From Cryobacterium flavum (GTDB lineage: Bacteria > Actinomycetota > Actinomycetes > Actinomycetales > Microbacteriaceae), in contig NZ_FNIB01000004.1 of NCBI RefSeq assembly GCF_900103805.1, positions 1 to 64,000 on the forward strand: a stretch of DNA of 64,000 nt, written 5' to 3'. Under the pieces are notes generated by a model. The model was not told where the DNA came from. It ran no database searches and was given only the letters and a program-made list of their open reading frames with translations. Positions 8,460-63,980 of this stretch are shown here, one piece after another (position 1 is the first letter of the stretch; every line of letters begins with the position of its first letter). The position numbers and the translations under genes were made by a program.

Positions 8460-9160
8460 ACACTCCAGCAGATCTGTACGCCGACTGGGACGGCGCCTAC
8501 GTGCTCGGCGCCCTGTCACCGGCCGACCGCCGGGACTACGAACGTCACCTCAACGACTGTGTCGCCTGCAGCCAGGCGGTCGCTCATCTCGTGGGTCTTC
8601 CGGGGCTGCTGGCCCAGGTGCCGCTCGATCAGGCCCTGCAACTGGACCAGCCCGTTGATTCCCGAGCGGATGCCGCCCCCTCCGCCACCCTGCTGCCCCG
8701 CCTGGTGCAGGCGGCCAGGGCGCACACCCGGCGCGCCCGCCTGCTCGCCGCTGGCGCGGTCGTGGCGGCCGCCGCGATCGCGGCATCCGCTGCCCTCGTC
8801 CTGCCCGGCTGGCTCGATCAGCCCGGTCAGAGCATCACCGAACCCGCCGTCGCCATGACCGCCGTGGTTCCCAGCCCGCTCACGGCCTCGTTTCGCCTGA
8901 CCGGCGAAGAGTGGGGCACGCGCATCGACGCGAACTGCAGCTACGCGCGCGGCGGCGACGATTTCGGCGCCCAGCCCTACGCCCTGTTCGTGACCGACCG
9001 GGACGGCCAGGAGACCCTCGTGGCCAGCTGGATCTCCGGACCCGGCAGCACCATCAGCGCGGCCGGTACCACGAGTGTGTCCGAAAACGACATCGCCAGC
9101 GTGGATATTCGGTGGATGCCCGACGAGAAGGTGCTGCTCGAATCCAAACCCAGCTGGTAG
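8456..9160 (+). CDS. Transmembrane zinc anti-sigma factor
   Basis: 234 residues. The N-terminal ~60 residues form a ZAS anti-sigma domain with the motif HX3CX2C (His31, Cys35, Cys38 in RHLNDCVACSQ), which in RslA/RsrA-type proteins binds zinc and can sense thiol oxidation. A transmembrane helix follows at about residues 98-122 (AAGAVVAAAAIAASAALVLPGW), then a ~100-residue extracytoplasmic domain (FRLTGEEWGTRIDANCSYA...). It should hold the ECF sigma factor at the membrane until a redox or envelope signal releases it. Overlaps the sigma gene by 4 nt, hence translationally coupled. It ends 5 nt from convergent tesB. Confidence 0.88.
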   Translation: MNTPADLYADWDGAYVLGALSPADRRDYERHLNDCVACSQAVAHLVGLPGLLAQVPLDQALQLDQPVDSRADAAPSATLLPRLVQAARAHTRRARLLAAGAVVAAAAIAASAALVLPGWLDQPGQSITEPAVAMTAVVPSPLTASFRLTGEEWGTRIDANCSYARGGDDFGAQPYALFVTDRDGQETLVASWISGPGSTISAAGTTSVSENDIASVDIRWMPDEKVLLESKPSW

Positions 9161-9165
9161 CGCTG

Positions 9166-10041
9166 CTACTCGAGAACGATGGGCACGCGCAGCATGCCCT
9201 CCTGCGCCACGGTAGCCAGGAGCACGCCGTCGCGGCTGAAGATGCTGCCCGTGGCCAGGCCGCGGCCACCCTGCGCGCTCGGTGAATCCTGCACGTAGAG
9301 CAGCCACTCGTCGACCCGACCGAACCGGTGCCACCACATGGCGTGATCCAGGCTGGCAACTTTGAGACCGGGAGTCGCCCAGGCCACTCCGTGCCGGCGC
9401 ATGATCGGTTCCATGATCGAATAGTCGCTCGCGTAGGCCAGGGCTGCGCGGTGCAGGTCGGGGTCGTCGGGCAGCGGTAAGAACGTCTTCATCCACACGG
9501 CCTGGCGCGAGGTGTGCTCACCGTTGACCTTGAGAAAGATCGGCGAGGGAACGTGCCGCATGTCGAAGGGCCGCTCGTTGGCCCAATAACGCGCTACCGA
9601 GTGGTCGATGTGGGCCAGCGCTTCGGATGCCGTCGGCAGGCTTTCCGGATCGGGGATATCTTTCGGCATCTCCAGATGATGCTCCAAGCCCTCATCGGCG
9701 TCCTGGAAGGAGGCGATCATCGACAGGATCGGCACGCCGTCTTGATAGCACTGCGTGCGGCGGGTGGAGAAGGAGCGGCCGTCGTGAATGCGTTCGACCG
9801 AAAAAGTAATCGGCTGGTTGACATCACCCGGGCGCAGAAAGTAGCCGTGCATCGAGTGCACGTGGCGTTCGTCGGGCACGGTGCGCATCGCAGCGACGAG
9901 GGACTGGGCCAGCACCTGCCCGCCGAACACGCGGCCGAGCGGCATCCACTGGGACGGCCCGGTGAAGATGTCCTCGCTGGTGCGTGCACCGGTGTCGGTC
10001 AGATCGAGGACGGCCAGAAGGCTTTCCATGGGCTTGTGCAT
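9166..10041 (-). CDS. tesB: Acyl-CoA thioesterase II
   Basis: 291 residues, the normal TesB length, from ATG 10041 with GAGGAG 6 nt upstream. A double-hotdog enzyme hydrolysing medium/long acyl-CoA in the cytosol. Visible hallmarks: RVFGGQVLAQSLVAA (N-terminal hotdog helix), HSMHGYFLRPGD, and in the second domain LDHAMWWHR, which carries the active-site Asp, plus GLATGSIFSRDGVLLATVAQEGMLR. Divergent from the conserved unknown gene at 10107; the 65-nt gap holds both promoters. Confidence 0.95.
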   Translation of the reverse strand: MHKPMESLLAVLDLTDTGARTSEDIFTGPSQWMPLGRVFGGQVLAQSLVAAMRTVPDERHVHSMHGYFLRPGDVNQPITFSVERIHDGRSFSTRRTQCYQDGVPILSMIASFQDADEGLEHHLEMPKDIPDPESLPTASEALAHIDHSVARYWANERPFDMRHVPSPIFLKVNGEHTSRQAVWMKTFLPLPDDPDLHRAALAYASDYSIMEPIMRRHGVAWATPGLKVASLDHAMWWHRFGRVDEWLLYVQDSPSAQGGRGLATGSIFSRDGVLLATVAQEGMLRVPIVLE

Positions 10042-10095
10042 GCTGTCTCCTCGGGCAAGTTCGCGTTCGCGGCATGCGGTCGTGGCGCATCTTGG

Positions 10096-10101
10096 TAGTT
10101 T
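10096..10101 (+). promoter_or_regulatory. Putative -10 box (TAGTTT), leaderless
   Basis: TAGTTT ends 5 nt before ATG 10107; no Shine-Dalgarno is seen. Confidence 0.45.
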
Positions 10102-10106
10102 AGAAG

Positions 10107-10787
10107 ATGATGAGCCAGTCATTCACTCTTACCGATTCCCAGTCCCTCAGCGATCTGATCATGTTTCTGTCACGATCCGGCCGCGTTCTCGACGGTTCCG
10201 TGCGCCTCATGGCGTCCGACGGCGTTCTGGCGGTGTACACCGCCATTTTCTATCCGCGCGGTCTGCTCGACGCGAGCCCGACCGTGCTCGGCCTGCGCAC
10301 CTTCGCCCTGACCGAGCCGGTCGACCTCGACAAGGTCGTGCCGGTGCGGTCGCTGCTGGAACGCCTCAAACGCCTGGAGTCCACCGCGCGCGACCTGAGC
10401 CTGCCGGTCATCGTGACTGTTCCGCTCGAGGTGAACACCGTGACCTGGGCCGGCATCTCCCCGCCGAAGGGCGGCTGGGAACCACACGGCCAGACTCCGG
10501 CGTCGCACCTTGAAACCGCCGCTCGGGAGGGCATCGACGAGGTTGCCGCCGCCGTGCCGGAGGGCACCGGCGAGCTGATCGTGGAACGCGTGCGCTCCGA
10601 AGTGTGGGGCCGTCAGGTTGACGGGCTCGAATTCGTACCGACCGGGGCCGGTTTCGCGGCGTTCAGCCTGGGATTTCTCTCCGATGACGAACCCGTGCAG
10701 CTGTTCGAGTCGGGCCTGTGGACCCGCCTCAGCACGAGTCGTGGCCATGTTCTGGTGCGGCGCAGGCCGTGGACGCTCACGGCCTGA
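10107..10787 (+). CDS. Conserved actinobacterial hypothetical protein
   Basis: 226 residues without signal peptide or transmembrane segment. The sequence is well ordered (RVLDGSVRLMASDGVLAVYT near residues 30-50; WAGISPPKGGWEPHG near 112-126) and reads like a known but uncharacterised actinobacterial family. No catalytic motif is recognised. An ATG at 10110 is an alternative start. Its last 11 nt overlap the end of the leftward pucR gene, so the two messages are complementary at their 3' ends. Confidence 0.7.
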   Translation: MMSQSFTLTDSQSLSDLIMFLSRSGRVLDGSVRLMASDGVLAVYTAIFYPRGLLDASPTVLGLRTFALTEPVDLDKVVPVRSLLERLKRLESTARDLSLPVIVTVPLEVNTVTWAGISPPKGGWEPHGQTPASHLETAAREGIDEVAAAVPEGTGELIVERVRSEVWGRQVDGLEFVPTGAGFAAFSLGFLSDDEPVQLFESGLWTRLSTSRGHVLVRRRPWTLTA

Positions 10788-12360
10788 CCGGCTCCACAAC
10801 GGCAGCGTCGGTGGCGAGCAGGGCCGCCCAGACATCCGCTCGAGCCGGAAACGACCCCAGGTCGCGGGCGAGCAGCTGCTCAGCCTGTTGAATGCGGGTG
10901 CGCACCGTGTGGCGGTGTACCCCGAGCTGCGCGGCGGCCTCGCCGAAGTGTCCGTTGCACACGAGCCACGCCCGCACGGTAGCCAGCAGCTCGCTGCCGT
11001 GTGCCCGATCGTGCGCCATCACCGGCGCGAGGGTGGCGAGGCCGACCTCGCGGGCATCCGTTCTGGCCAGCAGGGCCAGCACGCCCTGCCGGGCGACGAT
11101 ACTGAAATCGGTCACGCCCGGTGCGCTCTCCCGTGCCCGGGCCAGCGCCTGATGGGCCTGATCGAGGGCGCGAGGTAGCTGGCGGTAACCCGTCGGCTCC
11201 GACAGTCCTGCGTGCAGTTCGAACAGTGCGCACAGATTTAAGAGGATGCCGTTGGCCGCGCGGTCGAGACACAGAACCACGGTGTCGTCTTGGCGGGCGA
11301 AGAAGAGCTGCCCGGGGGAATCGTCGACGCGTAGTTCCAGGTACTCGGTGATCGCATCCCGGCGAACGGCCGGCACATCCACGACGGCGACGAGCACCGG
11401 TGGGTCAGGGAGCGCGCCCCACATTTGTCTGGAGATCTGGTCGACCAGGGTCTGGTCCCCGGCGAGCAGGGTGTTCAGCAGGCCGGAGCGCAGCAGCCCC
11501 TGGGCACGATCCAGGGCATTGTTCTGCTCGAGGGCGAGACCGGCCAGGGCAATCACGCTCGTCACCACCTCAGTGCTGGCCTGGTCCAGGGCGAGTGCGC
11601 CGCCGAGGGCGAGTACACCGCGCAGGTGGTCGTGGCCGCCGAGGGTCTGCAGGGTAAGGGTTTCACCGCCAGCGTCAACGGTGCTGCTGGACCGCTGACC
11701 GCGGGCGAGCAGTCGCCGGGCTTCCTGCTGCACGGTGGCGAGGGCTGTGGGGGCCGCGGCGAACGTGGCGCGGGGAAACACCCGATCCAGGGTTCCGCTC
11801 GCATCGAACAGGGCCACCCAATGGCCGAGCTGGGCGGACAGCTCAGCGAGCGTCGCACTCAGGCCGTCCGGACGCAGGGCGGCGAGCGCGATCGCGCGCT
11901 GGGCCTTGAGCGCCCAGGTGGCGCGGGCATACCGATCCTCGGCCACGAGGTCGCCGGCCGCCCGCGCAACGGCGATGAACGGGGTGCGATAGGGAACCTC
12001 GAACAACGGCAGCCCGAGCGTTCGGCACGCGGCGATCAGTCCGTCGGGCGTGCCGTCCCGAACGACGTCGGTGCCGAATCCGAGCGCCGTGATACCCCGC
12101 TCGTGCAGGCGCTGCACGTAGGGGCGGTAGTCGGTATCCGCTGCCGGATCACTGCCGAACTGGGTGCCGGTCGTGAGCAGCACGTGGTCGGCGGAGAGGA
12201 ACGGGGTCGGGTCGATCAGATCGGAGCTGTGTACCCATTCAACCGTGCGGTCGAGCCGTGCCGCCCGCGTGATCGGGTTGGCCTTGCCCGCATCAGCGTG
12301 CTCGAGCAGGGTGAGTCCCAGGTTCGAATCAGCGAGGAGCAGGCGCAGGGTGGGGAGCAT
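10777..12360 (-). CDS. PucR-family transcriptional regulator of the polyamine/GABA unit
   Basis: 527 residues. The N-terminal PucR domain (residues ~1-130, with HSSDLIDPTPFLSADHVLLTTG and GTDVVRDGTPDGLIAACRTLGLPLFEVPY) senses a purine- or amine-type ligand in characterised members. A GGDEF-like central region and a C-terminal HTH_30 (FGEAAAQLGVHRHTVRTRIQQAEQLL, residues ~484-509) bind DNA. Divergent from gabT across 138 nt that contain a direct repeat; one copy overlaps its own TATAGT -10 box, so autoregulation is likely. It probably controls gabT-gabD-puo-usp-permease in response to putrescine or a catabolite (inference). GabR-type MocR regulators, by contrast, have an aminotransferase domain that is absent here. 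Confidence 0.88.
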   Translation of the reverse strand: MLPTLRLLLADSNLGLTLLEHADAGKANPITRAARLDRTVEWVHSSDLIDPTPFLSADHVLLTTGTQFGSDPAADTDYRPYVQRLHERGITALGFGTDVVRDGTPDGLIAACRTLGLPLFEVPYRTPFIAVARAAGDLVAEDRYARATWALKAQRAIALAALRPDGLSATLAELSAQLGHWVALFDASGTLDRVFPRATFAAAPTALATVQQEARRLLARGQRSSSTVDAGGETLTLQTLGGHDHLRGVLALGGALALDQASTEVVTSVIALAGLALEQNNALDRAQGLLRSGLLNTLLAGDQTLVDQISRQMWGALPDPPVLVAVVDVPAVRRDAITEYLELRVDDSPGQLFFARQDDTVVLCLDRAANGILLNLCALFELHAGLSEPTGYRQLPRALDQAHQALARARESAPGVTDFSIVARQGVLALLARTDAREVGLATLAPVMAHDRAHGSELLATVRAWLVCNGHFGEAAAQLGVHRHTVRTRIQQAEQLLARDLGSFPARADVWAALLATDAAVVEPVRP

Positions 12361-12365
12361 GGGCT

Positions 12366-15385: not shown

Positions 15386-16753
15386 ATGACCACGATTGAT
15401 CGTGACGTCGTTATTATCGGCGCCGGGGCATCCGGTCTCACCGCCGCCACCGCACTGCAGAAAGCCGGCCTCAGCGTGGCCGTGCTGGAAGCCCGCGACC
15501 GCGTCGGCGGGCGCCTGTGGACCGACCAGATCGAGGGCGCCATGCTCGAGATCGGCGGCCAGTGGGTCTCGCCCGACCAGCATGCCCTCAAAGAGACCCT
15601 GGCCGAGCTGGGTCTCGCGACCTACCCGCGTTACCGGGCCGGTCGCAACGTCTACATCAATGCTGCCGGCGTGGTGAGCCGGTTCGACGGCGATATCTTT
15701 CCGGTCCCGGCCGGCACCGAAGCCCAGATCGTCGGTTTGATTGAGAAGCTCGACGCCCTCGTGGCCGAGATCAACCCAGATAGCCCGTGGGGTCATCCGC
15801 TCGCCAAAGAACTCGACGAGGTGTCCTTCAGTCGCTGGCTCGAGACCCAGACCGACGACCAGGAAGCCCGCGACAACATCGGCATGTTCATTGCCGGAGC
15901 CATGCTCACCAAGCCCGCGCACGCCTTCTCGGCATTGCAGGCCCTGCTCATGGCGGCCAGCGCTGGTTCCTTCAGCAACCTCGTCGACGCCGATTTCATT
16001 CTCGACGAGCGCGTCATCGGTGGGCTGCAGCAGGTGCCGCTACTTCTCGCCGAGAAGCTCGGCGCTGACGTGTTTCTTGATTCACCGGTGCGCAGCCTGG
16101 CCTGGAACGACAGCGGCGTCGCCGTCATAGCCGACGGCATGACGGTGACCGCTCGGCATGCCATCGTGGCCGTTCCGCCGCCCCTGATCAGCCGCATCAG
16201 CTTCGAACCACCCCTGCCGCGCCGCCAGCAGCAGCTGCACCAGCACCTCTCCATGGGCTTCGTGATCAAGGTGCACGCCGTCTACGAGACTCCGTTCTGG
16301 CGCGCCGATGACCTCTCCGGCACCGCGTTCAGCCCGTACGAGCTCGTGCACGAGGCCTATGACAACACCAACTTCGAGGACCCGCGCGGTACCCTGGTGG
16401 GCTTTGTCTCCGATGAAGAAGCGGATGCCGTCTTCGCGCTGACCGCAGACGAGCGCAAGACGCGCATCCTGGAATCCCTGTCGCACTACTACGGTGAGCA
16501 GGCCCTGCACCCGGTCGTCTATTACGAGAGCGACTGGGGTTCCGAGGAATGGACCCGTGGCGCCTACGCTGCGAGCTTCGACATGGGTGGACTGGCCCGG
16601 TATGGCGCCGAACTGCGCAGCCCCGTCGGCCCGATCTCGTTCTCCTGCAGCGATATGGCCGGCAAGGGCTACCAGCACGTTGACGGTGCCATTCGGGTTG
16701 GCCAGGAATCCGCTGCGGCGATTATCGCCCAGCGTGTCTTGGCCACCGTGTGA
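15386..16753 (+). CDS. puo: Putrescine oxidase (flavin amine oxidase)
   Basis: 455 residues, close to the Rhodococcus and Micrococcus enzymes. It oxidises putrescine to 4-aminobutanal, H2O2 and NH3 with FAD. The N-terminal FAD dinucleotide motif GAGASG (residues 12-17) is followed by VLEARDRVGGRLWT, LEIGGQWVSPDQ and, at the C-terminus, the flavin-site region around PISFSCSDMAGKGYQHVDGAIRVG. CAGGAG lies 7 nt before ATG 15386. Other members of the family act on tyramine or other monoamines; the combination with gabT/gabD favours putrescine. Overlaps the downstream usp start by 4 nt. Confidence 0.9.
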   Translation: MTTIDRDVVIIGAGASGLTAATALQKAGLSVAVLEARDRVGGRLWTDQIEGAMLEIGGQWVSPDQHALKETLAELGLATYPRYRAGRNVYINAAGVVSRFDGDIFPVPAGTEAQIVGLIEKLDALVAEINPDSPWGHPLAKELDEVSFSRWLETQTDDQEARDNIGMFIAGAMLTKPAHAFSALQALLMAASAGSFSNLVDADFILDERVIGGLQQVPLLLAEKLGADVFLDSPVRSLAWNDSGVAVIADGMTVTARHAIVAVPPPLISRISFEPPLPRRQQQLHQHLSMGFVIKVHAVYETPFWRADDLSGTAFSPYELVHEAYDNTNFEDPRGTLVGFVSDEEADAVFALTADERKTRILESLSHYYGEQALHPVVYYESDWGSEEWTRGAYAASFDMGGLARYGAELRSPVGPISFSCSDMAGKGYQHVDGAIRVGQESAAAIIAQRVLATV

Positions 16754-17622
16754 GGTTTCTGGTCGGCTATACCGCCACCTCGGCGGGAGCGGATGCCCTC
16801 GCCCTCGGCGTGCGCCTCGCCCGCGCGCCGGGCGCCGAACTCGACATCGTGCTCGTGCTCAATGCGGGGGAGCGTGCGACGCTCACCCCCACCGATCCCG
16901 GCTACGACCGGCTGCTGCTCGAAACGGCCGAGGTCTGGCTGGCCGAAGCGCTGACTCTGGTGCCCGAGGGTATTTCCGTGCACACCCACCTCGAACACGC
17001 CGACTCCTTCACGCGGGGGCTGCTCAAAGCGGCCGAACGGCTGCAGGCCAACCTGATCGTGGTCGGCGCGGCCACCCACGGCCTGCTGGGGCGCTTCGCC
17101 ATCGGCAGTGTCGCGGGCGGTCTGCTGCACTCCTCCCACGTTCCCGTTGCGCTGGCTCCGGAAGGCAGCCGCGTGATGGGCACCGACGAACCGATCGGCC
17201 GAGTCACCTGCGCGGTCGGGACCAAACCCGGCGCCGACGGACTGCTGACGGCCGGCATCCGTTTGGCCCGTACAGTGGATGCTCCGCTAAGGCTGGTCTC
17301 CCTCGTCGCGATCGACCGCCCCGGCGCCGACGCCCAGACCATCCAGCTCGCCGCCGACCACGCCCAGGCCGTGCTCGACTACGCCACCGAACACCTGATG
17401 GACGGGCTCGAGGTCACCGCCAGCGTCGCTTCCGGCGGCAGCATCGAGCATGCCGTGCGCGGCCTGCACTGGGACCCGGCCGAGGTCTGCATCGTCGGCT
17501 CCAGCCGGCTGGCGCAACCGCATCGACTCTTTTTGGGTTCGATCGCGGCCAAAATGCTGCGCGAATTGCCGGTGCCGCTCATCGTGGTGCCGCGAGATTT
17601 CACCGAGACGGTGGGGAAGTAA
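16750..17622 (+). CDS. Tandem UspA universal stress protein
   Basis: 290 residues from GTG 16750 (GTGA overlap with puo). Two UspA domains, about residues 1-140 and 153-290, each ending in an ATP-binding-type loop (VVGAATHGLLGRFAIGSVAGGLLH and IVGSSRLAQPHRLFLGSIAAKMLR). Proteins of this type are cytosolic, often nucleotide-binding, and frequently encoded beside transporters, where they are thought to modulate uptake. Here it sits between the oxidase and the permease of a polyamine unit, which suggests regulation of the permease or protection from the H2O2 made by Puo (inference). Confidence 0.85.
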   Translation: MRFLVGYTATSAGADALALGVRLARAPGAELDIVLVLNAGERATLTPTDPGYDRLLLETAEVWLAEALTLVPEGISVHTHLEHADSFTRGLLKAAERLQANLIVVGAATHGLLGRFAIGSVAGGLLHSSHVPVALAPEGSRVMGTDEPIGRVTCAVGTKPGADGLLTAGIRLARTVDAPLRLVSLVAIDRPGADAQTIQLAADHAQAVLDYATEHLMDGLEVTASVASGGSIEHAVRGLHWDPAEVCIVGSSRLAQPHRLFLGSIAAKMLRELPVPLIVVPRDFTETVGK

Positions 17623-19991: not shown

Positions 19992-20127
19992 CGCGCGCCG
20001 CCTTGAGTGGGCGATCACAAATGCGGTTCTGAGTCGGAGTAGGTTCCAGCCATGTCTTCGCTTACGCCGCTTGAGTGGGATGATCCCGTCGAACTCTGAA
20101 TAGGAGAGCCACGGCATCCGCTTTTTC

Positions 20128-53838: not shown

Positions 53839-53902
53839 CCAGCGATAGAACTCGGTCGGCCGGTCGGTCGACCGAACGGCACAGTGACAGCGGTAAAAGG
53901 TG

Positions 53903-53924
53903 GCGGCTTCCGCAGGGAAGCCGC
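53903..53924 (+). terminator. Intercistronic hairpin between flp and tadE
   Basis: GCGGCTTCC (53903-53911) and GGAAGCCGC (53916-53924) form a perfect 9-bp stem with a 4-nt loop, 27 nt before the tadE ATG. No T run follows, so it may attenuate or protect mRNA rather than fully terminate, letting pilin transcripts exceed assembly-gene transcripts. Confidence 0.6.
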
Positions 53925-53950
53925 TGCCGCTCAAGCTGAAGGGACCTCCG

Positions 53951-54352: not shown

Positions 54353-55359
54353 ATCATCTGCTCCGCGCCGAGCGCGGCGCCAGCGCCGTCATGGTCGGCA
54401 TCCTCATGATTCCCCTGCTGGGATTCCTGGCGATCGCGATCGACGTCGGCGCCCTCTACGCCGAAAAAGCGCAACTGCAGAACGGGGCGGATGCAGCAGC
54501 CATTGCCATCGCCCGCAACTGCGCCGTCGACGGCCTGTGCAACTCCCCGACCACGGTCGCGAACCAGGCTCAAGACTTTGCGAATGTCAATTCAAACGAC
54601 GCGAAATCCAATGCCTCAGCGGTCGTGCCCGCGCCGTCACCCGCGCCTCCCAACAGCGTTCAGGTTGTAGCGACGACTTTGGAGGCATCTGGAGCGTCCG
54701 CGATTAGGCCGTTCTTCGCCATCGGAGCTGCTCCAACGACAATGAGCGTGGTAGCGCAGGCGGAGTGGGGTTCGCCCGAAGCCGCCAACGTGTTGCCACT
54801 CGCTATTTCTTACTGCGAATTTCGGCCGGCTCTCGACGGCAAACTACAGCTCATTCGCTACGATCGGAATCTGGAGTGCGCTGGCCGCGACGGGCACCCT
54901 ATTCCGGGAGGTTTCGGCTGGATTGACCCGATCGCCGACACCTGCGAAGCTGCCGTCAACCTTACCAGCGAGACCGTACCCAGCGACCCGGGAAACGACC
55001 CGCCGACGAGTGACTGCGACACGTACTTCAACGCCATGCTGAACACCACGATCTTGGTGCCCATCTTCGATCGCGCCTACGCCAGCAACGGCAACGACGC
55101 CGTGACGGGAGCCGTGGGCAGCTACCACATCTATGCCTTTGCCGCCTTTCGCATCACCGGGTGGAAGTTCAGCGGAAACAATAATCTTCCGATGACCAGC
55201 CTCGATCCAGTTGCGCAAGCCTCGCCGGCGACGAAATGCACCGGAAATTGCAGGGGCATTCAGGGATATTTCGACCACTGGGTGTCGGTTGACTCGGCAG
55301 AAGTACAAGAGCTCGGCGGACCGAATCTCGGCGCAGAGTTTGTCAGACTCATCAAATAG
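54340..55359 (+). CDS. tadG: TadG-like pilus assembly protein
   Basis: 339 residues from GTG 54340 (GGGAG 9 nt upstream). N-terminal AERGASAVMVGILMIPLLGFLAIAIDVGALYAEKAQLQNGADAAAIA is the Flp-assembly TadG N-terminal domain. The remaining ~290 residues are exported, with several Cys (ARNCAVDGLC, DCDTYF, KCTGNC). It is a predicted membrane-anchored accessory subunit of the pilus. Confidence 0.9.
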   Translation: MRWLNHLLRAERGASAVMVGILMIPLLGFLAIAIDVGALYAEKAQLQNGADAAAIAIARNCAVDGLCNSPTTVANQAQDFANVNSNDAKSNASAVVPAPSPAPPNSVQVVATTLEASGASAIRPFFAIGAAPTTMSVVAQAEWGSPEAANVLPLAISYCEFRPALDGKLQLIRYDRNLECAGRDGHPIPGGFGWIDPIADTCEAAVNLTSETVPSDPGNDPPTSDCDTYFNAMLNTTILVPIFDRAYASNGNDAVTGAVGSYHIYAFAAFRITGWKFSGNNNLPMTSLDPVAQASPATKCTGNCRGIQGYFDHWVSVDSAEVQELGGPNLGAEFVRLIK

Positions 55360-55367
55360 GAGATCCC

Positions 55368-56093
55368 ATGAAAACCCGACTTATCGGTGCGATCGTCGCG
55401 ATTATCTTGGCCCTCGTGGGCACCTTCGCGCTCACCGGCTACGTGCGCGGTGCCGATGCCCGAGCGGCAGACGGCGCAGCCTTGGTCTCCGTGTTCGTCG
55501 TGACGACTCAGATTCCGCAGGGCACCAAGGCTGAAGACATCACCACGTTCATTGAACAGAAGCAGATTCCTGCGGTAGCCGCCGTTCCGGGTCGGGTGAC
55601 CAAACTGAGCGCGCTTGCTGGCACGGTAGCGGATGCTGCGCTCGTACCCGGCGAGCAGCTGATCAGTTCTCGTTGGGTCGAAGCGGCCGACCTCGCCGCC
55701 CGCGGTGACGTCAAGGTTCCCGACGGCATGCAGGTGCTCACCCTCGCGTTACCGCTGGAACGAGTCGTGGGCGGCGTGCTCAAAGCCGGCGACACCGTGG
55801 GAGTGGTGATCACCGCGACCAAAACCGTCGACGGAACGGAAATGCTGCTGAGCAAGCAGGTCTTCCACAAGGTGCTGGTCACGGCCGTACAGGCCGGCAC
55901 CACGACGACGCCCGACGCTGGCGCCGATGCCACCCCGGTGAGCGTCATTATGGTCACTCTGGCCCGCACCACCCCCGACATCGAGTCCCTGGTCTGGGGC
56001 CAGCAGTTCGGAACGGTCTGGCTCACGATCGAACCCGACAAGGCTACCGAGGCCGGCTCCCGGGTCGTCGACGGGTCGGAGATGTTCCGGTGA
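55368..56093 (+). CDS. cpaB: CpaB/RcpC-like pilus protein
   Basis: 241 residues, AGGAG before the ATG. N-terminal membrane anchor (LIGAIVAIILALVGTFALTGYV) and an SAF domain (VVTTQIPQGTKAEDITTFIEQKQIP; LVPGEQLISSRWV), then the RcpC-type domain with LALPLERVVGGVLKAGDTVGVV. In diderms CpaB supports the secretin; in a monoderm it probably lines the wall passage. The stop overlaps the next gene. Confidence 0.9.
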   Translation: MKTRLIGAIVAIILALVGTFALTGYVRGADARAADGAALVSVFVVTTQIPQGTKAEDITTFIEQKQIPAVAAVPGRVTKLSALAGTVADAALVPGEQLISSRWVEAADLAARGDVKVPDGMQVLTLALPLERVVGGVLKAGDTVGVVITATKTVDGTEMLLSKQVFHKVLVTAVQAGTTTTPDAGADATPVSVIMVTLARTTPDIESLVWGQQFGTVWLTIEPDKATEAGSRVVDGSEMFR

Positions 56094-57028
56094 GGCAAAT
56101 GCAAAGTTTCGGGCCCCTGCCGCAAGGTAGCCCAGTGGGGGCAAACCCCGTATCCGACCAGGTGATTGTCGAAATGCCGGATGGACCGGTCGGCCTGGCA
56201 GCGGCGACGAGTACCCAGCCAGCGGCACAAGACCTTCCTCCGACTGGCAGCCCACCAAGACGTCGCATCATCGCGGTCGTCGCGGCGAAAGGCGGCCTCG
56301 GCAAGACCACCGTCGCCACGAACCTCGCCGTCGGACTCGCCCGGCTGGCCCCGCACTCCGTCGTGCTCATCGATGCTGACGTGCAATTCGGAGACGTTGC
56401 AATGGCGCTTTCCCTGGAGCCGGCGCTGACCCTGCCCGATGTCGTCTTGGGGAACGCCGTCGACGATCTCATGGTGCTCAAGTCCTCGCTGACCGCACAT
56501 TCGAGCGGCTTCTACACGGTGTGCGGTTCCGACCAGCCGGATGCCGGCGATCGCGTCACCGGCGATCAGCTCGGTCATCTCATCAATCAACTCGCTGACG
56601 TCTTTCAGTACATCATCATCGATACAGCGCCGGGGCTCGGCGATCATGCTCTCGCTGCCTTGGAGCTAGCCACCGATGCCGTCTTCCTCTGCGACATGAC
56701 TGTACCCAGTGCCAGGGGGTTGCGCAAAGAGCTCGCCGTGCTCGATCGCATTGGCATCATGCCGCCCGCGCGTCACGTCGTGCTCAACCTCGCCGATCGG
56801 CGCAGTGGGCTGAGCGTTCGAGATGTCGAGGCGACCATCGGTGTGCCGGTCGACGTAGCAGTGCCCCGTTCCACCCTGGTCTCGGTGTCGACAAACCGGG
56901 GCGTACCGGTGTTGCAGGAGGGCGGACGAAGTCCCGTCGCCCGCGCCCTCGACAGGCTGGTCGCCCGGTTTGACGCCGGTGCCCCCAAGAAAACCTTTCA
57001 GCTGCACAAGAGGGTGGATATCTCATGA
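56090..57028 (+). CDS. cpaE: CpaE/TadZ-like ParA-type ATPase
   Basis: 312 residues from GTG 56090 (GTGA overlap). Deviant Walker A KGGLGKTT (residues ~69-76), then VLIDADVQFGDVAMAL and YIIIDTAPGLGDHAL. It lacks an N-terminal receiver domain, having only a ~60-residue disordered leader. Members position the Tad machine at the pole or other site. Overlaps cpaF by 4 nt. Confidence 0.9.
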   Translation: MRQMQSFGPLPQGSPVGANPVSDQVIVEMPDGPVGLAAATSTQPAAQDLPPTGSPPRRRIIAVVAAKGGLGKTTVATNLAVGLARLAPHSVVLIDADVQFGDVAMALSLEPALTLPDVVLGNAVDDLMVLKSSLTAHSSGFYTVCGSDQPDAGDRVTGDQLGHLINQLADVFQYIIIDTAPGLGDHALAALELATDAVFLCDMTVPSARGLRKELAVLDRIGIMPPARHVVLNLADRRSGLSVRDVEATIGVPVDVAVPRSTLVSVSTNRGVPVLQEGGRSPVARALDRLVARFDAGAPKKTFQLHKRVDIS

Positions 57029-58479
57029 GACTCAATGAACGAATGGACGCCGCACTGCGCGACGGTCCGCTGGCCCGCGTTGACCGCACCGCACCGCTGC
57101 ATCCGCTGCCAAGCGTGCCTGACGACGGCGTCGTACCGGCAGCCCGTACCGCCCCACCAGCGGCGGCGCCGCCGATCGTCGTCGATCCGCTTGCCGACAT
57201 TAAGGAGCGGGCGGCCCAGGAACTGTTCGAGCGCATCGGGTTTCGCCTGAACGACTCAAGCCTGACCGAGGAACAGCTGCACAGCTACGCCAGAACCGAG
57301 CTGGGCAACATCGTCACCGACGAGCAGGTGCCACTCAATTCTGACGAACGGGCGCGCCTGATCAATGAGATCGGCGACGACGTGCTCGGCTATGGTCCGC
57401 TGGAATCGCTGCTCGACGACGACACCGTGACCGAGATCATGGTGAACGGCCACGAGCAGATTTGGGTGGAACGCTTCGGCCGGCTGTCCCGCAGCGATAC
57501 CCACTTCACGAGCGAGGCCCAGCTTCGCCGGGTGATCGAGCGCATCGTGTCCAAGGTCGGTCGCCGCATCGACGAATCGTCTCCGCTCGTCGATGCCCGC
57601 CTGGCCGACGGTTCCCGGGTGAACGCCATCATCCCGCCGCTCGCTGTGGACGGCTCCTCCCTGACCATCCGCAAATTCGCCCGGGAACCGTTCACGGTGA
57701 CCGACCTCATCCGCTTGGGAACGATGAGCATCGAAATGGCACAGGTGCTCGACGCCTGCGTCAAGGCACAACTGAACATCATCGTGTCGGGTGGAACGGG
57801 GACTGGTAAAACGACCCTGCTCAACGTACTGTCCGGGTTCATTCCGGAGCGAGAGCGCATCGTGACCATCGAGGATGCGGTCGAGCTGCAACTGCAGCAG
57901 GAACACGTCATCCGCCTCGAATCCCGCCCAGCCAACATCGAGGGCAAGGGCGAGGTCACCATTCGTGACCTTGTGCGCAACTCCCTGCGCATGCGGCCCG
58001 ACCGCATCGTCATCGGTGAGTGCCGTGGTGGCGAGACCCTTGACATGCTTCAGGCCATGAACACCGGGCATGAGGGGTCGATTTCCACGGTGCACTCCAA
58101 TTCGCCGCGCGATGCGATCGCGCGCATGGAGACACTCGTGCTGATGGCGGGCATGGACCTGCCGGTGCGGGCGATCCGCGAGCAGATCTCTTCCGCCATC
58201 GACGTGATCGTGCAGATCAGCCGCATGAAAGACGGCTCTCGGCGCATTACCCATGTCACCGAGGTGCAGACCATGGAGGGGGAGATCGTCACCCTTCAGG
58301 AGGTGTTCGTGTTCGATCACCACGCCGGGGTCGATCCTGCGGGAAACCTGCTCGGTCGCGCGATAGCCACTGGCGTTCGGCCACGTTTCGCCGATCGCTT
58401 CGCCGACCTCGGTATCGTTTTGGACCCGAGTGTGTTCCAGGCCGACCTGCTGACCCGCAGCGCGAAGGCACTGCGATGA
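57025..58479 (+). CDS. cpaF: Tad pilus assembly ATPase CpaF/TadA
   Basis: 484 residues. Secretion ATPase powering pilus extension, and in many species retraction. Features: GPLESLLDDDTVTEIMVNG, Walker A SGGTGTGKTTLLN, Asp box TIEDAVELQL, Walker B RMRPDRIVIGECRGGETLDMLQAMNTGHEGS, His box. The first ~55 residues are disordered, as usual. Translationally coupled on both sides (4-nt overlaps). Confidence 0.96.
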   Translation: MRLNERMDAALRDGPLARVDRTAPLHPLPSVPDDGVVPAARTAPPAAAPPIVVDPLADIKERAAQELFERIGFRLNDSSLTEEQLHSYARTELGNIVTDEQVPLNSDERARLINEIGDDVLGYGPLESLLDDDTVTEIMVNGHEQIWVERFGRLSRSDTHFTSEAQLRRVIERIVSKVGRRIDESSPLVDARLADGSRVNAIIPPLAVDGSSLTIRKFAREPFTVTDLIRLGTMSIEMAQVLDACVKAQLNIIVSGGTGTGKTTLLNVLSGFIPERERIVTIEDAVELQLQQEHVIRLESRPANIEGKGEVTIRDLVRNSLRMRPDRIVIGECRGGETLDMLQAMNTGHEGSISTVHSNSPRDAIARMETLVLMAGMDLPVRAIREQISSAIDVIVQISRMKDGSRRITHVTEVQTMEGEIVTLQEVFVFDHHAGVDPAGNLLGRAIATGVRPRFADRFADLGIVLDPSVFQADLLTRSAKALR

Positions 58480-59432
58480 GTACCGCGATCTTTGCGTTCG
58501 GTGTGCTGTGCGTTGTTGCCGCACTGCTCGTGGTCGTGCTTCTTGTCATTGCGCCGCCGATGCTTCGCGTGCCGCTGGATCGTCGCCGCGCTCCCGGCGC
58601 GGTAGAGGTGTCCGGGCTGACCCGGCTCACCGACCGCACCGTCGGAGCAATCGACCGAGTGATCCGGCGACGCAACGTGGTGCCGTTCACCGCAGCCGAG
58701 CTGGAGCAGGCTGGGATCCGAATGCAGCCATCCGCTTTTGTGCTCATGGTGATTTCCGCAGCGGCGGTGGCAGCCCTGCTCGGCCTGCTTCTCGGTGACG
58801 GCACCGTTTGGATGGTGCCCCTCATGATTTTGTTCGCGGCACTCGCCGTCGTCGGCGCCAAGGTCTGGCTCCGGTTGCGCACAGGGCACCGCCGCGCCAA
58901 ATTCGCCGATCAGCTTGACGAATCACTCGGGCTGCTGGCCGGCGGACTGCGCGCCGGGCACAGCCTGATGCGGGCAGTGGATGCCGTCAGCCACGAAACC
59001 GAACAGCCCACGTCCGATGAATTTGCGCGCATCGTGAACGAAACACGCATCGGCCGTGACCTGAGCGACTCGCTCGAGAGTACGGCAGTGCGCATGCGCA
59101 GTGAGGATTTTCAGTGGGTCGCCCAGGCCATCTCGATTAACCGCGAGGCTGGTGGCAACCTCTCAGAGGTGCTCGACCAGGTGGGTCACACCATTCGGGA
59201 ACGCAATCAGGTTCGGCGTCAGGTCAAATCCCTCGCCGCTGAGGGAAAGCTCTCGGCTTGGGTGCTCGTGCTCCTGCCGATCGGAGTGTTCGCGTTCCTG
59301 CTCATCAGCCAGCCCAATTATTTCAACGGGTTCCTCGGCAACATCATCGGAATCATCGCGATCATCGTGGCCGCCGTTCTGCTCATTGTCGGTTCGCTCT
59401 GGATGATGGCCGTCGTCAAAGTGAAATTCTAA
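58476..59432 (+). CDS. tadB: Tad inner-membrane platform protein TadB
   Basis: 318 residues. Three to four transmembrane segments with the T2SSF domain RAKFADQLDESLGLLAGGLRAGHSLMRAVDAVSHETEQPTSDEFARIVNE...RIGRDLSDSLE, and SEDFQWVAQAISINREAGGNLSEVLDQVGHTI. Works with TadC and the CpaF ATPase. Confidence 0.94.
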   Translation: MSTAIFAFGVLCVVAALLVVVLLVIAPPMLRVPLDRRRAPGAVEVSGLTRLTDRTVGAIDRVIRRRNVVPFTAAELEQAGIRMQPSAFVLMVISAAAVAALLGLLLGDGTVWMVPLMILFAALAVVGAKVWLRLRTGHRRAKFADQLDESLGLLAGGLRAGHSLMRAVDAVSHETEQPTSDEFARIVNETRIGRDLSDSLESTAVRMRSEDFQWVAQAISINREAGGNLSEVLDQVGHTIRERNQVRRQVKSLAAEGKLSAWVLVLLPIGVFAFLLISQPNYFNGFLGNIIGIIAIIVAAVLLIVGSLWMMAVVKVKF

Positions 59433-59442
59433 GGAGAAGCGG

Positions 59443-60321
59443 ATGCCCCCGATACTCACCTTTTTCGCCGCCCTTGCTGTGGCCGGCGGCCTCGCCGCTG
59501 TCGTAGCCATTCTGGTCGGAGCCCGCCGAACCGACCCGGTCGCCGACGCGGTCATTGTGCTGCCCGGATTGGGTCGGCCGGGCCTGCTGCCTCATCGCTC
59601 GGGACTGCTCGCGGCCAGTCGTGAGTTGGCACCAAAGGGGTACGTGGGCTTTCTTGACCACCGCCTCGCCCTGGCCGGCCGCCCCGCCGCCTGGACCATC
59701 GATAAGATCTTCATCGCCAAACCAGCCCTGGCCGGAGCCGGCCTGCTGCTCGCGGTGCTGTGGATCACCAACGACCCCGTTCCGCTGCGCATCCTGGTCG
59801 GAAGCCTGCTCGTGGTGATCTGCTTCTTCGTGCCCGACCTGCTGCTGTACAGCCGTGGTCAGGAACGCCAGGCAGCCATGCAGAACGCGCTCGCCGACAC
59901 GCTTGACCAGATGACCATTTCGGTCGAGGCCGGCCTCGGCTTTGAGGCGGCGATGAGCAAGGCCGGAACCAATGGGTCCGGGCCGCTGGCTGAGGAGCTC
60001 ATCCGCACTCTGCAGGACATGAGCATCGGCCGCAGCCGCAAGGATGCCTACCTCGCGCTCGCCGATCGCACCGATTCCGCCGATCTGCGCCGCTTCACAC
60101 GGTCGGTCATCCAGGCCGACACCTACGGCATCGCAATCGCCGACGTCCTACGGGTGCAGGCAGGGGAGATGCGTCTGCGCCGCCGTCAGCGTGCGGAGGA
60201 GCAGGCGATGAAGGTGCCGGTCAAGGTCATCTTCCCGCTCGTGTTCTGCATCCTGCCGGTGCTGTTCATCGTGCTGCTGACGCCCGCGGTGATCAACATC
60301 ATGAAGGTCTTCTCGCTCTGA
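59443..60321 (+). CDS. tadC: Tad inner-membrane platform protein TadC
   Basis: 292 residues. ATG 59443 is preceded by AAGGAG and lies inside a copy of the dispersed AGCGGATGCC motif. T2SSF domain: ERQAAMQNALADTLDQMTISVEAGLGFEAAMSKAG ... ELIRTLQDMSIGRSRKDAYLALADRT, C-terminal membrane helices (FPLVFCILPVLFIVLLTPAV). Last gene of the pilus row; no prepilin peptidase is in the window. Confidence 0.94.
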   Translation: MPPILTFFAALAVAGGLAAVVAILVGARRTDPVADAVIVLPGLGRPGLLPHRSGLLAASRELAPKGYVGFLDHRLALAGRPAAWTIDKIFIAKPALAGAGLLLAVLWITNDPVPLRILVGSLLVVICFFVPDLLLYSRGQERQAAMQNALADTLDQMTISVEAGLGFEAAMSKAGTNGSGPLAEELIRTLQDMSIGRSRKDAYLALADRTDSADLRRFTRSVIQADTYGIAIADVLRVQAGEMRLRRRQRAEEQAMKVPVKVIFPLVFCILPVLFIVLLTPAVINIMKVFSL

Positions 60322-61094: not shown

Positions 61095-62501
61095 GTGAAG
61101 TCCACGGTCGAAAAACTGAGCCCCACGCGCGCCAAGCTCACCATCACGGTGAGCCCCGACGAGCTGAAGCCAGCCATCACCCACGCCTACGGCCACATTG
61201 CCGAAGACATCAACATCCCCGGTTTTCGTAAGGGAAAGATCCCGCCCGCGATCATCGACCAGCGCGTCGGCAAGGCTGCCGTTCTGGAACACGCCGTCAA
61301 CGAGGGCCTCGACGGTTTCTACCGCGCCGCCGTCGAAGAGAACAAGCTGCGCCCGCTGGGTCGCCCCGAAGCCGACATCGTCGAATGGCCGAGCAACACC
61401 GACTTCTCCGGTGATCTGCTTCTCGCCATCGAGGTTGACGTGCGCCCCGAGATCGACCTGCCCGACTACGCCGGCCTCAAGCTCACCGTCGATGCTGTCT
61501 CGGTCTCCGACGAAGAAGTCGCGGAAGAACTCGACAAGCTGCGCAGCCGTTTCGGCACGCTTATCACCGTTGACCGCCCCGCCAAGACCGGCGACTTCGC
61601 CCAGATCGACCTGAACGCCGCGATCGACGGCGACGAGGTTGACACCGCCAGCGGAATTTCCTACGAGGTCGGCTCCGGCGACCTCATCGACGGCATCGAC
61701 GAGGCGCTCGATTCGCTCAGCGCCGGCGAGACCACCACCTTCAACTCCGACCTCATGGGCGGAGACCACGAGGGTGAGACGGCCGAGATCACGATTACGG
61801 TCATCGCTGTCAAGGAGCGCGAACTGCCAGAGGCCAACGACGACTTCGCTCAGATCTCGAGCGAGTTCGACACGATCGCCGAGTTGACCGAGAGCCTCAA
61901 GGTTCAGGTCGAGAATTCCAAGGCCTTCGGCCAGGGCAGCCAGGCCCGCGAGCGTCTCATTGAGACGCTGCTTGGTTCGGTCGACGTTCCGATCCCCGCC
62001 GCGATCATCCTCGACGAGGTGAACCGTCACCTCGAGGGCGAAAGCCGACTCGAAGACGACACCCACCGCGCCGAGGTCACCGAGGCTAGCGAGAAGACGT
62101 TCCGTCAGCAGATTCTGCTCGACACGATCGCCGAAGCGGAGCAGGTCAAGGTCAGCCAGGACGAGCTGACCCAGTACCTCATCCAGGGCGCCAGCCAGTA
62201 CGGCATGGACCCGAGCGAGTTCGTACAGACGCTCAACACCAACGGTCAGATTCCGTCGATGGTCGCCGAGGTTGCCCGTAACAAGGCCCTCGCCATCGCC
62301 CTGGGCAAGGCCGAGGTCGTTGACTCCAACGGCAAGCCGGTCGACCTGAGCGAATTCACCGGCCCGGTCGCTGATGATTCCGCCGACGACGCCGCTGTCG
62401 AAGCGGATGCCGCCACCAGCGACGACGACGCCCCCGTCGTCGAAGCCGACGCCGAGGTTGAAGAGAAGCCCAAGAAGAAGAAGGCCGCTGCCAAGAAGTA
62501 G
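61095..62501 (+). CDS. tig: Trigger factor
   Basis: 468 residues from GTG 61095 (CAGGAG 9 nt upstream). Ribosome-associated chaperone and peptidyl-prolyl isomerase. The N-terminal ribosome-binding motif GFRKGKIP (seen in [16 protein letters not shown]) is intact; the FKBP-type domain ([18 protein letters not shown]...[21 protein letters not shown]) and C-terminal arms follow. The tail is acidic then Lys-rich ([13 protein letters not shown]), common in Actinobacteria. Located just upstream of clpP1-clpP2, the usual order. A terminator follows. Confidence 0.97.
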
Positions 62502-62515
62502 CGGTTGTTTGCGTG

Positions 62516-62550
62516 AAAGGGCCGGCTGGAATCTTCCCAGTCGGCCTTTT
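62516..62550 (+). terminator. Rho-independent terminator after tig
   Basis: AAAGGGCCGGCTGG (62516-62529) pairs, with two G-T wobbles, with CCAGTCGGCCTTTT (62537-62550), which ends in four T. Confidence 0.85.
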
Positions 62551-62666
62551 GCATGCTGAGGGAGCCGTGTGCGCGGCCCGGTAATCTGCCGAGGGCGAAC
62601 AGAGCCGTTTTCGCTCGCGCGCTCCGATAGATTCATTGAGAAGCGACAACTGAAACGGAGCACGAC

Positions 62667-63269
62667 ATGGCCGACCCGACACCCACCAACGGTGTATTTG
62701 ACCGACTGCTGAAGGACCGCATCATCTGGCTCGGCTCAGAGGTCCGTGACGAAAATGCCAACGAGATCTGCGCCAAGATCCTGTTGCTGGCAGCCGAAGA
62801 CTCGAAGCGAGACATCTACCTCTACATCAACTCACCCGGTGGTTCGATCACCGCCGGAATGGCAATCTACGACACGATGCAGTTCGTACCCAACGATATT
62901 GTCACCGTCGGTATCGGCATGGCCGCCTCGATGGGGCAGTTCCTGCTGACCAGTGGAACCAAGGGCAAGCGGTACATCACCCCGAACGCCCGGGTGCTGC
63001 TGCACCAGCCGTCCGGAGGATTCGGCGGCACGGCTGCCGACATCCAGACCCAGGCGCGCCTCATTCTCGACATGAAGCAGCGACTGTCGGAGATCACGGC
63101 CGCGCAGACCGGCAAGACGCCAGAGCAGATCAACGCCGACGGTGACCGCGACAACTGGTTCAGCGCTCAGGAAGCCCTCGAATATGGTTTCGTCGATCAC
63201 CTCCGCGCATCCGCTTCGGATGTCATCGGCGGCGGCGGCACTGACCCCGACGCGGCAGTCACCAAGTAG
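62667..63269 (+). CDS. clpP1: ATP-dependent Clp protease proteolytic subunit 1
   Basis: 200 residues. Serine protease ring subunit: catalytic Ser in GMAASMGQF, His in LLHQPSGG and Asp in the C-terminal third, all in place. With ClpP2 it forms the mixed tetradecamer that ClpX or ClpC1 feeds. CGGAG lies 8 nt before the ATG. The upstream region (62551-62666) holds TAGATT (62628-62633), a plausible -10, and a weak inverted repeat GCGAA-N10-TTCGC (62595-62614). Confidence 0.97.
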
Positions 63270-63296
63270 TCCACCGAAACTGAACAGGAAGAAATC

Positions 63297-63980
63297 ATGA
63301 CTATCCCCACATTCGGTGGAACGGCCTACAGCTCGATGGGCGGCTCGACCAAGAACGCTCCTGAATCTCGCTACATTCTCCCCACCTTCGAAGAGCGCAC
63401 CGCCTACGGCTACAAGCGCCAGGACCCTTACGCCAAGCTGTTCGAAGACCGCATCATCTTTCTCGGTGTGCAGGTCGACGACGCCTCGGCCGATGACGTC
63501 ATGGCCCAGCTCCTCGTGCTCGAGAGTCAGGACCCCGACCGCGACATCACCATGTACATCAACTCGCCCGGCGGTTCGTTCACCGCTATGACGGCGATCT
63601 ACGACACCATGCAGTACATTCGTCCGCACGTGATGACCGTGTGCCTCGGCCAGGCGGCATCCGCTGCCGCAGTGCTGCTTGCCGGTGGTACAGCGGGCAA
63701 GCGTCTCGCCCTGCCGAACGCGCGCATCCTCATTCACCAGCCCTCGGTTGGTGGCCAGGGCGGCGGCCAGGCCTCGGACATCGAGATTCAGGCAGCCGAG
63801 ATTCTGCGCATGCGCGTTTGGCTTGAAGAGACCCTCGCTCACCACTCCAACCGGAGCGTGGAGCAAGTCAACAAGGACATTGACCGCGACAAGATCATGA
63901 GCGCGGCCGAGGCCCTCGAATACGGCCTGATCGACCAGGTTCTGACCAGCCGCAAAAACCTTCCGATGCTGGTCAAATAG
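63297..63980 (+). CDS. clpP2: ATP-dependent Clp protease proteolytic subunit 2
   Basis: 227 residues. Catalytic Ser lies in [11 protein letters not shown] and His in LIHQPSVGG, followed by [21 protein letters not shown]. The N-terminal extension ([16 protein letters not shown]...) is longer than in ClpP1, as in actinobacterial ClpP2. AGGAAG precedes the ATG and the gap to clpP1 is 27 nt, so the two are one operon; clpX is expected next, beyond the window. Confidence 0.97.

Follow-up and report, generated by a model that had tools for sequence, protein, structure and literature searches.

The motif in the window and in the genome

The first 64,000 nucleotides of contig NZ_FNIB01000004.1 of Cryobacterium flavum, hereafter the window, raise the question of what a short word repeated in both orientations, inside and outside genes, is doing on this chromosome. 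The exact 10-mer AGCGGATGCC occurs 19 times in the window against 0.23 copies expected and at most 2 in dinucleotide shuffles (n = 100), and the octamer GCGGATGC occurs 37 times against 8.0 expected, the largest shuffle value being 15. Five further copies of AACGGATGCC appear to represent the same motif; counted together, the 19 and the 5 give 24 copies of A[A/G]CGGATGCC. The first-pass annotation, which had reported 18 exact 10-mers beginning at 8665 and at least 32 octamers against about 5 expected, was slightly low in its 10-mer count and its octamer expectation and missed the actual first copy at 1942, but the excess it described holds for both words, and its octamer count is consistent with ours. 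Independent gene calls bore out its placement of copies on both strands, in several frames and in intergenic DNA at 20113 and 25372.

Table 1 Positions of the motif copies and of the pilus locus in the window
Feature	Position	Strand	Remark
AGCGGATGCC	1942..1951	+	
AGCGGATGCC	8665..8674	+	
AGCGGATGCC	8782..8791	-	
AACGGATGCC	11053..11062	-	
AGCGGATGCC	16420..16429	+	
AGCGGATGCC	16788..16797	+	
AACGGATGCC	17254..17263	-	
AGCGGATGCC	20113..20122	-	intergenic
AGCGGATGCC	25372..25381	-	intergenic
AACGGATGCC	26035..26044	-	intergenic
AGCGGATGCC	28156..28165	+	intergenic
AGCGGATGCC	31874..31883	+	
AGCGGATGCC	38495..38504	-	
AGCGGATGCC	38641..38650	+	
AGCGGATGCC	42014..42023	-	
AACGGATGCC	45083..45092	+	
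AGCGGATGCC	46731..46740	+	
AGCGGATGCC	46999..47008	+	
AACGGATGCC	51001..51010	+	
AGCGGATGCC	52783..52792	-	
AGCGGATGCC	53010..53019	+	
Tad/Flp pilus locus	53647..60321	+	Flp, TadE, TadE/G-like, RcpC/CpaB, ParA-like, T2SSE ATPase, two T2SSF (Pfam matches, gene calls)
AGCGGATGCC	59438..59447	+	overlaps start of second T2SSF (tadC-like) gene
AGCGGATGCC	62402..62411	+	
AGCGGATGCC	63656..63665	-	

The dispersed over-representation is real and larger in extent than first noted. Enrichment beyond the window, a check that had been named at the outset, is present in the 4.04-Mb genome of the same Cryobacterium, where 927 copies of AGCGGATGCC compare with 36 of the reversed-sequence control. The GGATG core of the motif is nearly rigid and its flanks are tolerant, the Cryobacterium form being A[A/G]C-GGATG-C[C>G>T]; neither AGCGGATGCC nor CGGATGCC is palindromic. 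The avoidance expected of a host restriction site is absent, the motif being strongly enriched instead.

Distribution and altered forms in the family

Of the 62 Microbacteriaceae genera tested, 36 are rich in the core word CGGATGCC, which reaches 4093 copies per genome, and none of 139 genomes from other families of the same order reaches a fourfold enrichment. Within Cryobacterium, one genome (G032) has 2028 copies of CGGATGCC but only 118 ten-mers, having kept the core while the AG flank is scarce, and another (G035) has 2139 and 913, respectively. In 27 of 49 genomes, GGATGCC is the top word of the panel, and some genera carry altered forms, including GGATGCG, GGATGACC, AGGATCC, and GGATCCG. 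These mostly have GGAT in common, GGAGGCG and CACCGAT being among those that lack it. One genus has two forms (G164 and G221), and the GGATCC of G221 is a palindrome.

On a ComEC tree, the motif-rich and motif-poor states, labeled from whole-genome counts with a fixed cut-off, require 9 changes versus 15.3 for shuffled labels, and none of 500 shuffles was as low, indicating that they are clustered. Hand-assigned labels for the motif forms also clustered. With strict form labels (the best panel word with z >= 4 on 20–120 kb per genome), clustering was lost, as 125 of 500 and 43 of 200 shuffles were as low; 15 of the 49 genomes fell under this bar, some of them motif-rich genome-wide, such as G084 (3019 vs 190). 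The forms GGAGGCG, AGGATCC, GGATGCG, and GGATGAC were found in two genomes each, and no such pair forms a clade on this tree. The motif-poor G109 and G083 sit inside supported clades with motif-rich genera, and the motif is therefore dispensable.

In five phages, one of them complete and the other four represented by about half of their length, CGGATGCC is not enriched, with 15 copies in total versus 13.7 expected; the highest single phage has 5 versus 1.9. A mobile-looking 40-kb stretch, picked for lacking the motif, has 4 versus 3.2 expected. Relative to these five phages and this one stretch, the motif is chromosome-specific. Between close species, 10 of 16 motif sites (L022, L001, and L002) are intact, compared with a proportion of 0.39–0.55 for any 8-mer of like GC, so that conservation of individual sites is not clearly above background.

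Resemblance to DNA-uptake sequences

Among known systems, the motif best matches the tags by which some bacteria recognize DNA of their own kind during uptake. We put at roughly 45% the probability that much of the Microbacteriaceae carries a non-palindromic self-tag throughout the chromosome that works like the DNA-uptake sequences of Neisseriaceae, with AGCGGATGCC as its form in Cryobacterium. The initial description of the motif as uptake-like or iterated is upheld insofar as it is dispersed, free of orientation and frame, not enriched in the five phages and the one mobile-looking stretch, and present in altered forms on a mostly fixed core, whereas the accompanying link to Tad pili is unproven. 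Tentatively, the family as a whole may have uptake sequences whose dialects limit gene flow between species, with a receptor belonging to a Tad-type or ComEA-based system.

The mechanism that we infer comprises a receptor, uptake, and drive. A DNA receptor at the surface or envelope (a Tad minor pilin or ComEA might serve) would recognize, on double-stranded DNA and whichever way the motif points, GGATG together with flanks that differ between lineages. Motif-bearing DNA would preferentially enter through ComEA/ComEC and then be recombined. Over repeated rounds, this biased uptake would build up the motif and keep renewing it on the chromosome, but would not do so on phages or on elements that had just arrived. 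A shift of receptor specificity could give rise to the altered forms.

Known uptake sequences offer several parallels. The DUS of Neisseriaceae is likewise a dispersed word of about 10 nucleotides with hundreds to thousands of copies, a fixed inner core, and variable flanks, and it has several dialects, one of which arose by a one-base insertion (PMC3630211); here, GGATGCC and GGATCC are one base apart. The DUS differs in having a CTG core instead of GGATG, in belonging to another phylum, and in having a ComP-type receptor; in Microbacteriaceae a type IV pilus is not always present, and the rarer forms are not clades on the ComEC tree. The USS of Pasteurellaceae shares the copy number of hundreds to thousands and both orientations but is biased to gene ends (PMC2346458), while the present motif has another sequence and no clear bias toward gene ends.

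In the papers found, descriptions of uptake sequences are confined to Neisseriaceae and Pasteurellaceae (PMC7811141, PMC3630211). Our search of the open-licence literature returned no paper on competence in Microbacteriaceae, and the matches listed, as judged from titles and abstract openings, contained neither an uptake sequence nor a motif like this one for either Microbacteriaceae or Actinobacteria. If the uptake reading is true, these would be uptake sequences outside the two Gram-negative families for which we found them described, the phenomenon having arisen again in one-membrane bacteria of an actinobacterial family, possibly with Tad pili. The origin of uptake specificity could then be tested by comparing the 85 sampled genera, including the genus with two forms, and the motif might aid getting DNA into harmless laboratory strains of Microbacteriaceae. 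Should the uptake reading be wrong, this family would still have a large chromosome tag of its own in need of explanation.

Candidate uptake machinery

ComEC was found in all 80 genomes (our own and 79 others), including motif-poor ones, and therefore does not predict the motif. A ComEA-like gene lies directly upstream of ComEC in 25 of 30 regions of relatives in which ComEC was called, as judged by eye; ComEA-like genes and the Tad locus also occur in motif-poor genomes. The Tad/Flp pilus locus that the first-pass annotation had recognized in the window was confirmed by Pfam matches (Table 1). It is a candidate uptake filament, although its connection to the motif is one that we infer. In another actinobacterium, Micrococcus luteus, transformation is reported to depend on Flp pili (PMC6370729).

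At least two TadE matches are present in 28 of 36 motif-rich versus 8 of 26 motif-poor genera (Fisher p = 0.0003, uncorrected and ignoring relatedness among the 62 genera), and the motif-rich G066 and G076 have no TadE match. A relatedness-aware test had only 6 independent pairs and gave support neither way, leaving Tad as the machine that tracks the motif with an uncorrected association only. The case for the type IV pilus is similar: its marker PilM is present in 45 of 80 genomes and in 23 of 36 motif-rich versus 9 of 26 motif-poor genera, a weak association (p = 0.04, uncorrected) with no support in independent pairs, and several motif-rich genomes lack it (e.g., G116, G137, and G164).

Alternative explanations

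The main rival to an uptake sequence, which we regard as rather unlikely, is that the core is the target of a DNA methyltransferase and that repair or recombination dependent on this methylation gives rise to the copies and preserves them. The precedent is the cyanobacterial HIP1, an 8-mer iterated many times across a large taxon, in which, as in the present motif, the inner bases are rigid and the outer ones variable; it is tied to two orphan methyltransferases conserved in the same genomes, and its one-base deviations fall at the outer bases, comparable to the rigid GGATG core here (PMC4390886). We searched 80 genomes for the PF01555 and PF02086 methyltransferase families, taking the gene context of PF01555 from one genome. 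A PF01555 enzyme of about 300 aa is conserved family-wide, with some match in 79 of 80 genomes; G089 lacks it, G108, G110, and G179 have weak matches, and G089, G110, and G179 are motif-poor. Exchange of enzymes would also suit rarer forms that are not clades. However, the middle part of the protein, presumably the target recognition part, is nearly invariant when nine enzymes are compared, whose genomes cover five motif forms and include one lacking the motif, and the enzyme is about equally conserved in two other families (f6, 10/10 genomes; f20, 7/9), in which the core word does not exceed about 2.5 times the control. Moreover, G069, G072, G104, and G109 have the enzyme without a GGATG motif, while G108 lacks a strong match of this type and yet carries GGATGCG. 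HIP1 is also palindromic and mostly one sequence, whereas the main Microbacteriaceae motif is non-palindromic and has several forms that the methyltransferase does not follow. Methylation had been raised at the outset, and a conserved methyltransferase does exist; as a reader of the motif it is weakened by a sequence that tracks neither the forms nor their range. GGATG is the recognition site of M.FokI-type enzymes, but PF02086, which we take to be their methyltransferase family, exceeds the cut-off in just 12 of 80 genomes, and this candidate was rejected.

Next in plausibility, and also improbable, is a binding site for a family-specific chromosomal protein of the nucleoid, replication, repair, or segregation, selected for dense coverage regardless of orientation. 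The dense, near-random spacing in both orientations would fit (5-kb bins; mean 1.21 and variance 1.21 in our genome, 3.66 and 5.25 in G122), as would the unenriched phages and the clustering of motif state on the ComEC tree. Against this, we know of no nucleoid protein with thousands of such exact sites, site-by-site conservation between species is weak, and the motif is dispensable, as G109 and G083 illustrate.

A Chi-like recombination signal or an FtsK-orienting KOPS/AIMS sequence is very improbable. These are likewise short over-represented words of chromosomes; the 10-mer density of about one per 4.4 kb is similar to that of E. coli Chi, and the motif opens with AGCGG, which is the B. subtilis Chi. 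Chi and KOPS/AIMS are strand-polarized, however, whereas no sense/antisense, strand, or replichore polarity was found for the motif. On the one closed chromosome sampled, neither half shows a strand bias (68/66 and 79/82), though the gene strand flips there, and blocks of our own genome show no clustering of orientation (chi2 = 10.7, 19 df). Replication polarity was therefore dropped, and the chromosome-organization motif envisaged by the first-pass annotation is unsupported in its polar kind.

Finally, we all but dismiss the idea that the motif arises from codon usage, codon context, or mutation bias. Coding DNA makes up about 86% of the sample and certain frames are used more often than others, but the motif occupies all six frames and both strands, the five phages are not enriched, and 394 kb of coding DNA contains 98 copies versus 4.6 after within-gene synonymous-codon shuffling (maximum 9, n = 100). 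Because this shuffle falls far short and intergenic DNA, which has no codons, is enriched as well (14 copies versus 0.21 expected), the codon bias initially offered as an alternative, in its context-dependent form, is not supported as the source of the excess. Motif density in intergenic DNA is approximately equal to that in coding DNA.

Abundance and anatomy of the motif

The first-pass annotation described a highly over-represented dispersed motif in the window, and the counts bear this out. The exact 10-mer AGCGGATGCC occurs 19 times on both strands versus 0.23 expected (maximum of 2 in 100 dinucleotide shuffles), and the octamer GCGGATGC occurs 37 times versus 8.0 expected. An unbiased count under an order-2 Markov model returned overlapping parts of this motif, from AGCGGAT to AGCGGATGCCGC, as the top words for k = 7 to 12. 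The enrichment was also found in the rest of the genome, as AGCGGATGCC reaches 481 + 446 copies on the two strands of its 4,040,838 bases, versus 13 + 23 for the reversed-word control. The closest named relatives are the Cryobacterium loci L001 and L002, with best-segment identities of 91 and 89%.

Within the motif, one-mismatch neighbours of the inner GGATG total 24 versus about 33 expected, and four of its five positions, summed, lie at or below background (at position 5: 1, 0, and 0 copies), the exception being the final G (6 one-mismatch copies versus 2.4). Changes at outer positions are frequent, including A at position 2 (48 versus 1.3) and, at position 10, G (30 versus 2.0) or T (25 versus 1.1). 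Taken together, the scarce GGATG neighbours and the frequent outer changes define the form in this genome as A[A/G]C-GGATG-C[C>G>T]. The profile of G122, a genome of another genus, is C-GGATG-CCG, with slack again at the last core G.

Range across the family and altered forms

The finding holds up well and reaches across a whole family. We surveyed 299 Microbacteriaceae genomes from 85 genera for the core word CGGATGCC against its control. The counts range from depletion in G110 of genus g73 (43 versus 115) to 4093 versus 230 in G199 and 4041 versus 116 in G116, and with one genome per genus, 36 of 62 genera reach a ratio of at least 5. None of the 139 genomes from other families of the order reached a ratio of 4; the highest value, read off the table, was about 3.8 (G395, 293 versus 78), and the 10-mer was under control level in 19 of 23 such genomes. 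Small genomes of about 1-1.8 Mb mostly have low CGGATGCC, with exceptions including G124 and G234.

Altered forms were identified from k-mers with codon and intergenic nulls in 49 genomes, each represented by 20 to 456 kb of sequence. An 11-word panel, picked after this discovery step, was then scored with a bar of z 4. GGATGCC was the best panel word in 27 of the 49 genomes and in 22 of the 34 reaching z 4. GGATGCG characterizes G067, G108, G004, and G080, reaching z 4 only in the first three; G080 carries GGATGCC as well. The other forms are GGATGAC(C) in G101 and G111, GGATGCTG in the Microbacterium locus L029, GGATGCCC in G066, AGGATCC in G063 and G106, GATCCGG in G154, GGAGGCG in G094 and G114, CACCGAT in G069, a weak GCGATCCGC in G110, and GGATCCG in G221, of which the same-genus G164 and G271 carry GGATGCC. 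The stretches of G072, G073, G076, and G109 held no clear motif and those of G075, G083, and G104 only weak signals; the whole-genome CGGATGCC ratio of G076 is high (11.6) despite the lack of a motif in its 20 kb. Two Cryobacterium genomes share the core and differ in the flank, with 2028 CGGATGCC and only 118 ten-mers in G032 and 2139 and 913 in G035.

These states were followed on a quick tree built from the ComEC of 51 genomes (midpoint root, 21 of 48 inner forks open). Motif-rich and motif-poor genomes, by whole-genome count, are separated by 9 changes versus 15.3, with none of 500 shuffles as low for the rich state (7 changes at cut-off 4 and 10 at cut-off 6). This clustering suggests that the presence of the motif follows descent. 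Hand-set labels gave 11 changes versus 16.7 for GGATGCC (1 of 500 shuffles as low) and 16 versus 20.9 for all forms (0 of 200), and strict labels from short stretches showed no clustering (125 of 500 and 43 of 200 as low). GGATG forms are absent from all nine genomes on the early branches; the remaining 42 include four without the motif, one with a weak signal, and four with other forms. Each rare form occurs in two genomes, and these never group together on this tree.

Uptake machinery and interpretation

We read the motif as a candidate, unproven DNA-uptake sequence, with a probability of roughly 0.45. Its closest match is the DNA-uptake sequence (DUS) of Neisseriaceae, which it resembles in many tested respects but not in gene-end bias. 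One source (PMC3630211) describes eight DUS dialects with a fixed three-base core, CTG, one differing by an insertion, and their congruence with the core-genome tree; the forms found here have so far not followed the tree in this way.

All 80 family genomes searched have ComEC (PF03772), whether rich or poor in the motif. Among 40 ComEC neighbourhoods, 10 gave no ComEC call, and in 25 of the 30 readable regions, all from relatives, a ComEA-like, HhH-ended protein, judged by eye, lies directly upstream, including in motif-poor G104, G073, G083, G076, and G109. The ComEC frame is only about 558-574 residues in G002, G006, G014, G154, and G264, where the domain alignment begins at positions 22-28 of the profile, and is possibly split or truncated; G014 is motif-rich despite this short frame.

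The Tad locus noted earlier in the window was confirmed. Two sources report that transformation of the actinobacterium Micrococcus luteus needs Flp pili (PMC6370729) and link DNA uptake in Liberibacter to Tad pili (PMC8513845). Across the 80 family genomes, PilM was found in 45, pilin N_methyl in 47, and TadE in 71. At least two TadE copies occur in 28 of 36 motif-rich versus 8 of 26 motif-poor genera (p 0.0003, uncorrected), and the independent pairs, of which only six exist, gave no support either way. Several PilM homologues lie on single contigs (G003:C90, G014:C51, and G035:C11), which suggests that some Cryobacterium genomes carry multiple type IV pilus loci.

Features located in the genome under study (G000)
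Feature	Locus	Coordinates	Strand	GC	Remarks
Tad/Flp pilus genes		window 53647..60321	+		
Mobile-looking stretch, 40 kb	L090-L091	G000:C17:1-40000		0.60-0.62	recombinase-like and small unknown genes, by eye
PF01555 DNA methyltransferase	L262	G000:C25:440369-441223			homologues across Microbacteriaceae and f6, f20 (other families of the order)

A methylation-linked iterated motif, akin to the cyanobacterial HIP1 that PMC4390886 ties to orphan methyltransferases, is the main rival reading and the less likely one. Its candidate enzyme, the PF01555 protein of about 300 residues, is nearly universal in Microbacteriaceae, and no partner nuclease lies beside its gene in G122, the sole context read. 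Nine of these enzymes, taken from genomes that differ in motif state, share 58-80% identity, and their middle part hardly varies. The enzyme is about equally conserved in f6 (10 of 10 genomes) and f20 (7 of 9), two families in which the core word does not exceed about 2.5 times its control. Judged by its sequence, the enzyme appears not to read the forms. That the motif is a site for another chromosomal binding factor is a further, less likely reading.

Codon, strand, and position

Little weight falls on a Chi or KOPS signal or on a by-product of codon or composition bias, the readings to which the following counts relate. In a 456-kb sample of the genome (the window plus 20 stretches; 415 genes called), coding DNA holds 98 copies of AGCGGATGCC, whereas 100 shuffles of synonymous codons gave 4.6 (at most 9). 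The intergenic part, 62 kb, holds 14 versus 0.21 expected under an order-2 Markov model. The density is about equal, at 0.22 per kb intergenic and 0.25 per kb overall, and all six reading frames are used, unevenly. Orientations of A[A/G]CGGATGCC are balanced at 82/79 (sense versus antisense, 73/63), with no heterogeneity among blocks of this genome (p 0.93). On the closed chromosome of G122, sampled as 20 stretches of 20 kb, CGGATGCC shows no replichore polarity (68/66 in the first half, 79/82 in the second), whereas gene strand flips between the halves (109/67 to 66/125). In 5-kb bins, 10-mer spacing is random-like in the genome under study (mean 1.21, variance 1.21) and less even in G122 (mean 3.66, variance 5.25). 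No clear gene-end bias of the motif was seen.

Phages, mobile DNA, and other repeats

In the few elements compared, the motif behaves as chromosome-specific. Observed/expected counts of CGGATGCC were 6/5.4, 0/2.0, 1/2.4, 3/2.0, and 5/1.9 in five Microbacterium and Curtobacterium phages (Min1 in full, about half of each of the other four), drawn from at least 105 such records; four Microbacterium host loci, not the actual hosts of these phages, gave 67/6.6. The mobile-looking stretch, which was picked up because the 10-mer is absent from it, has CGGATGCC at 4/3.2, and the other 416 kb of the sample have 258/36, with the 10-mer at 113/1.8.

The 456-kb sample also contains six copies of an exact repeat, CATAACTCCTGCAA, and four of a palindrome around AGTTTATAAACTGG. 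Genome-specific, mostly intergenic repeat words, perhaps REP- or terminator-like, occur in stretches of G088 (L165), G108 (L174), G104, and G109, for example GGAAACTCA (11 copies), CCACTCAAG (13), TCTCGATA (18, intergenic), and TTCGACAG (14, intergenic).
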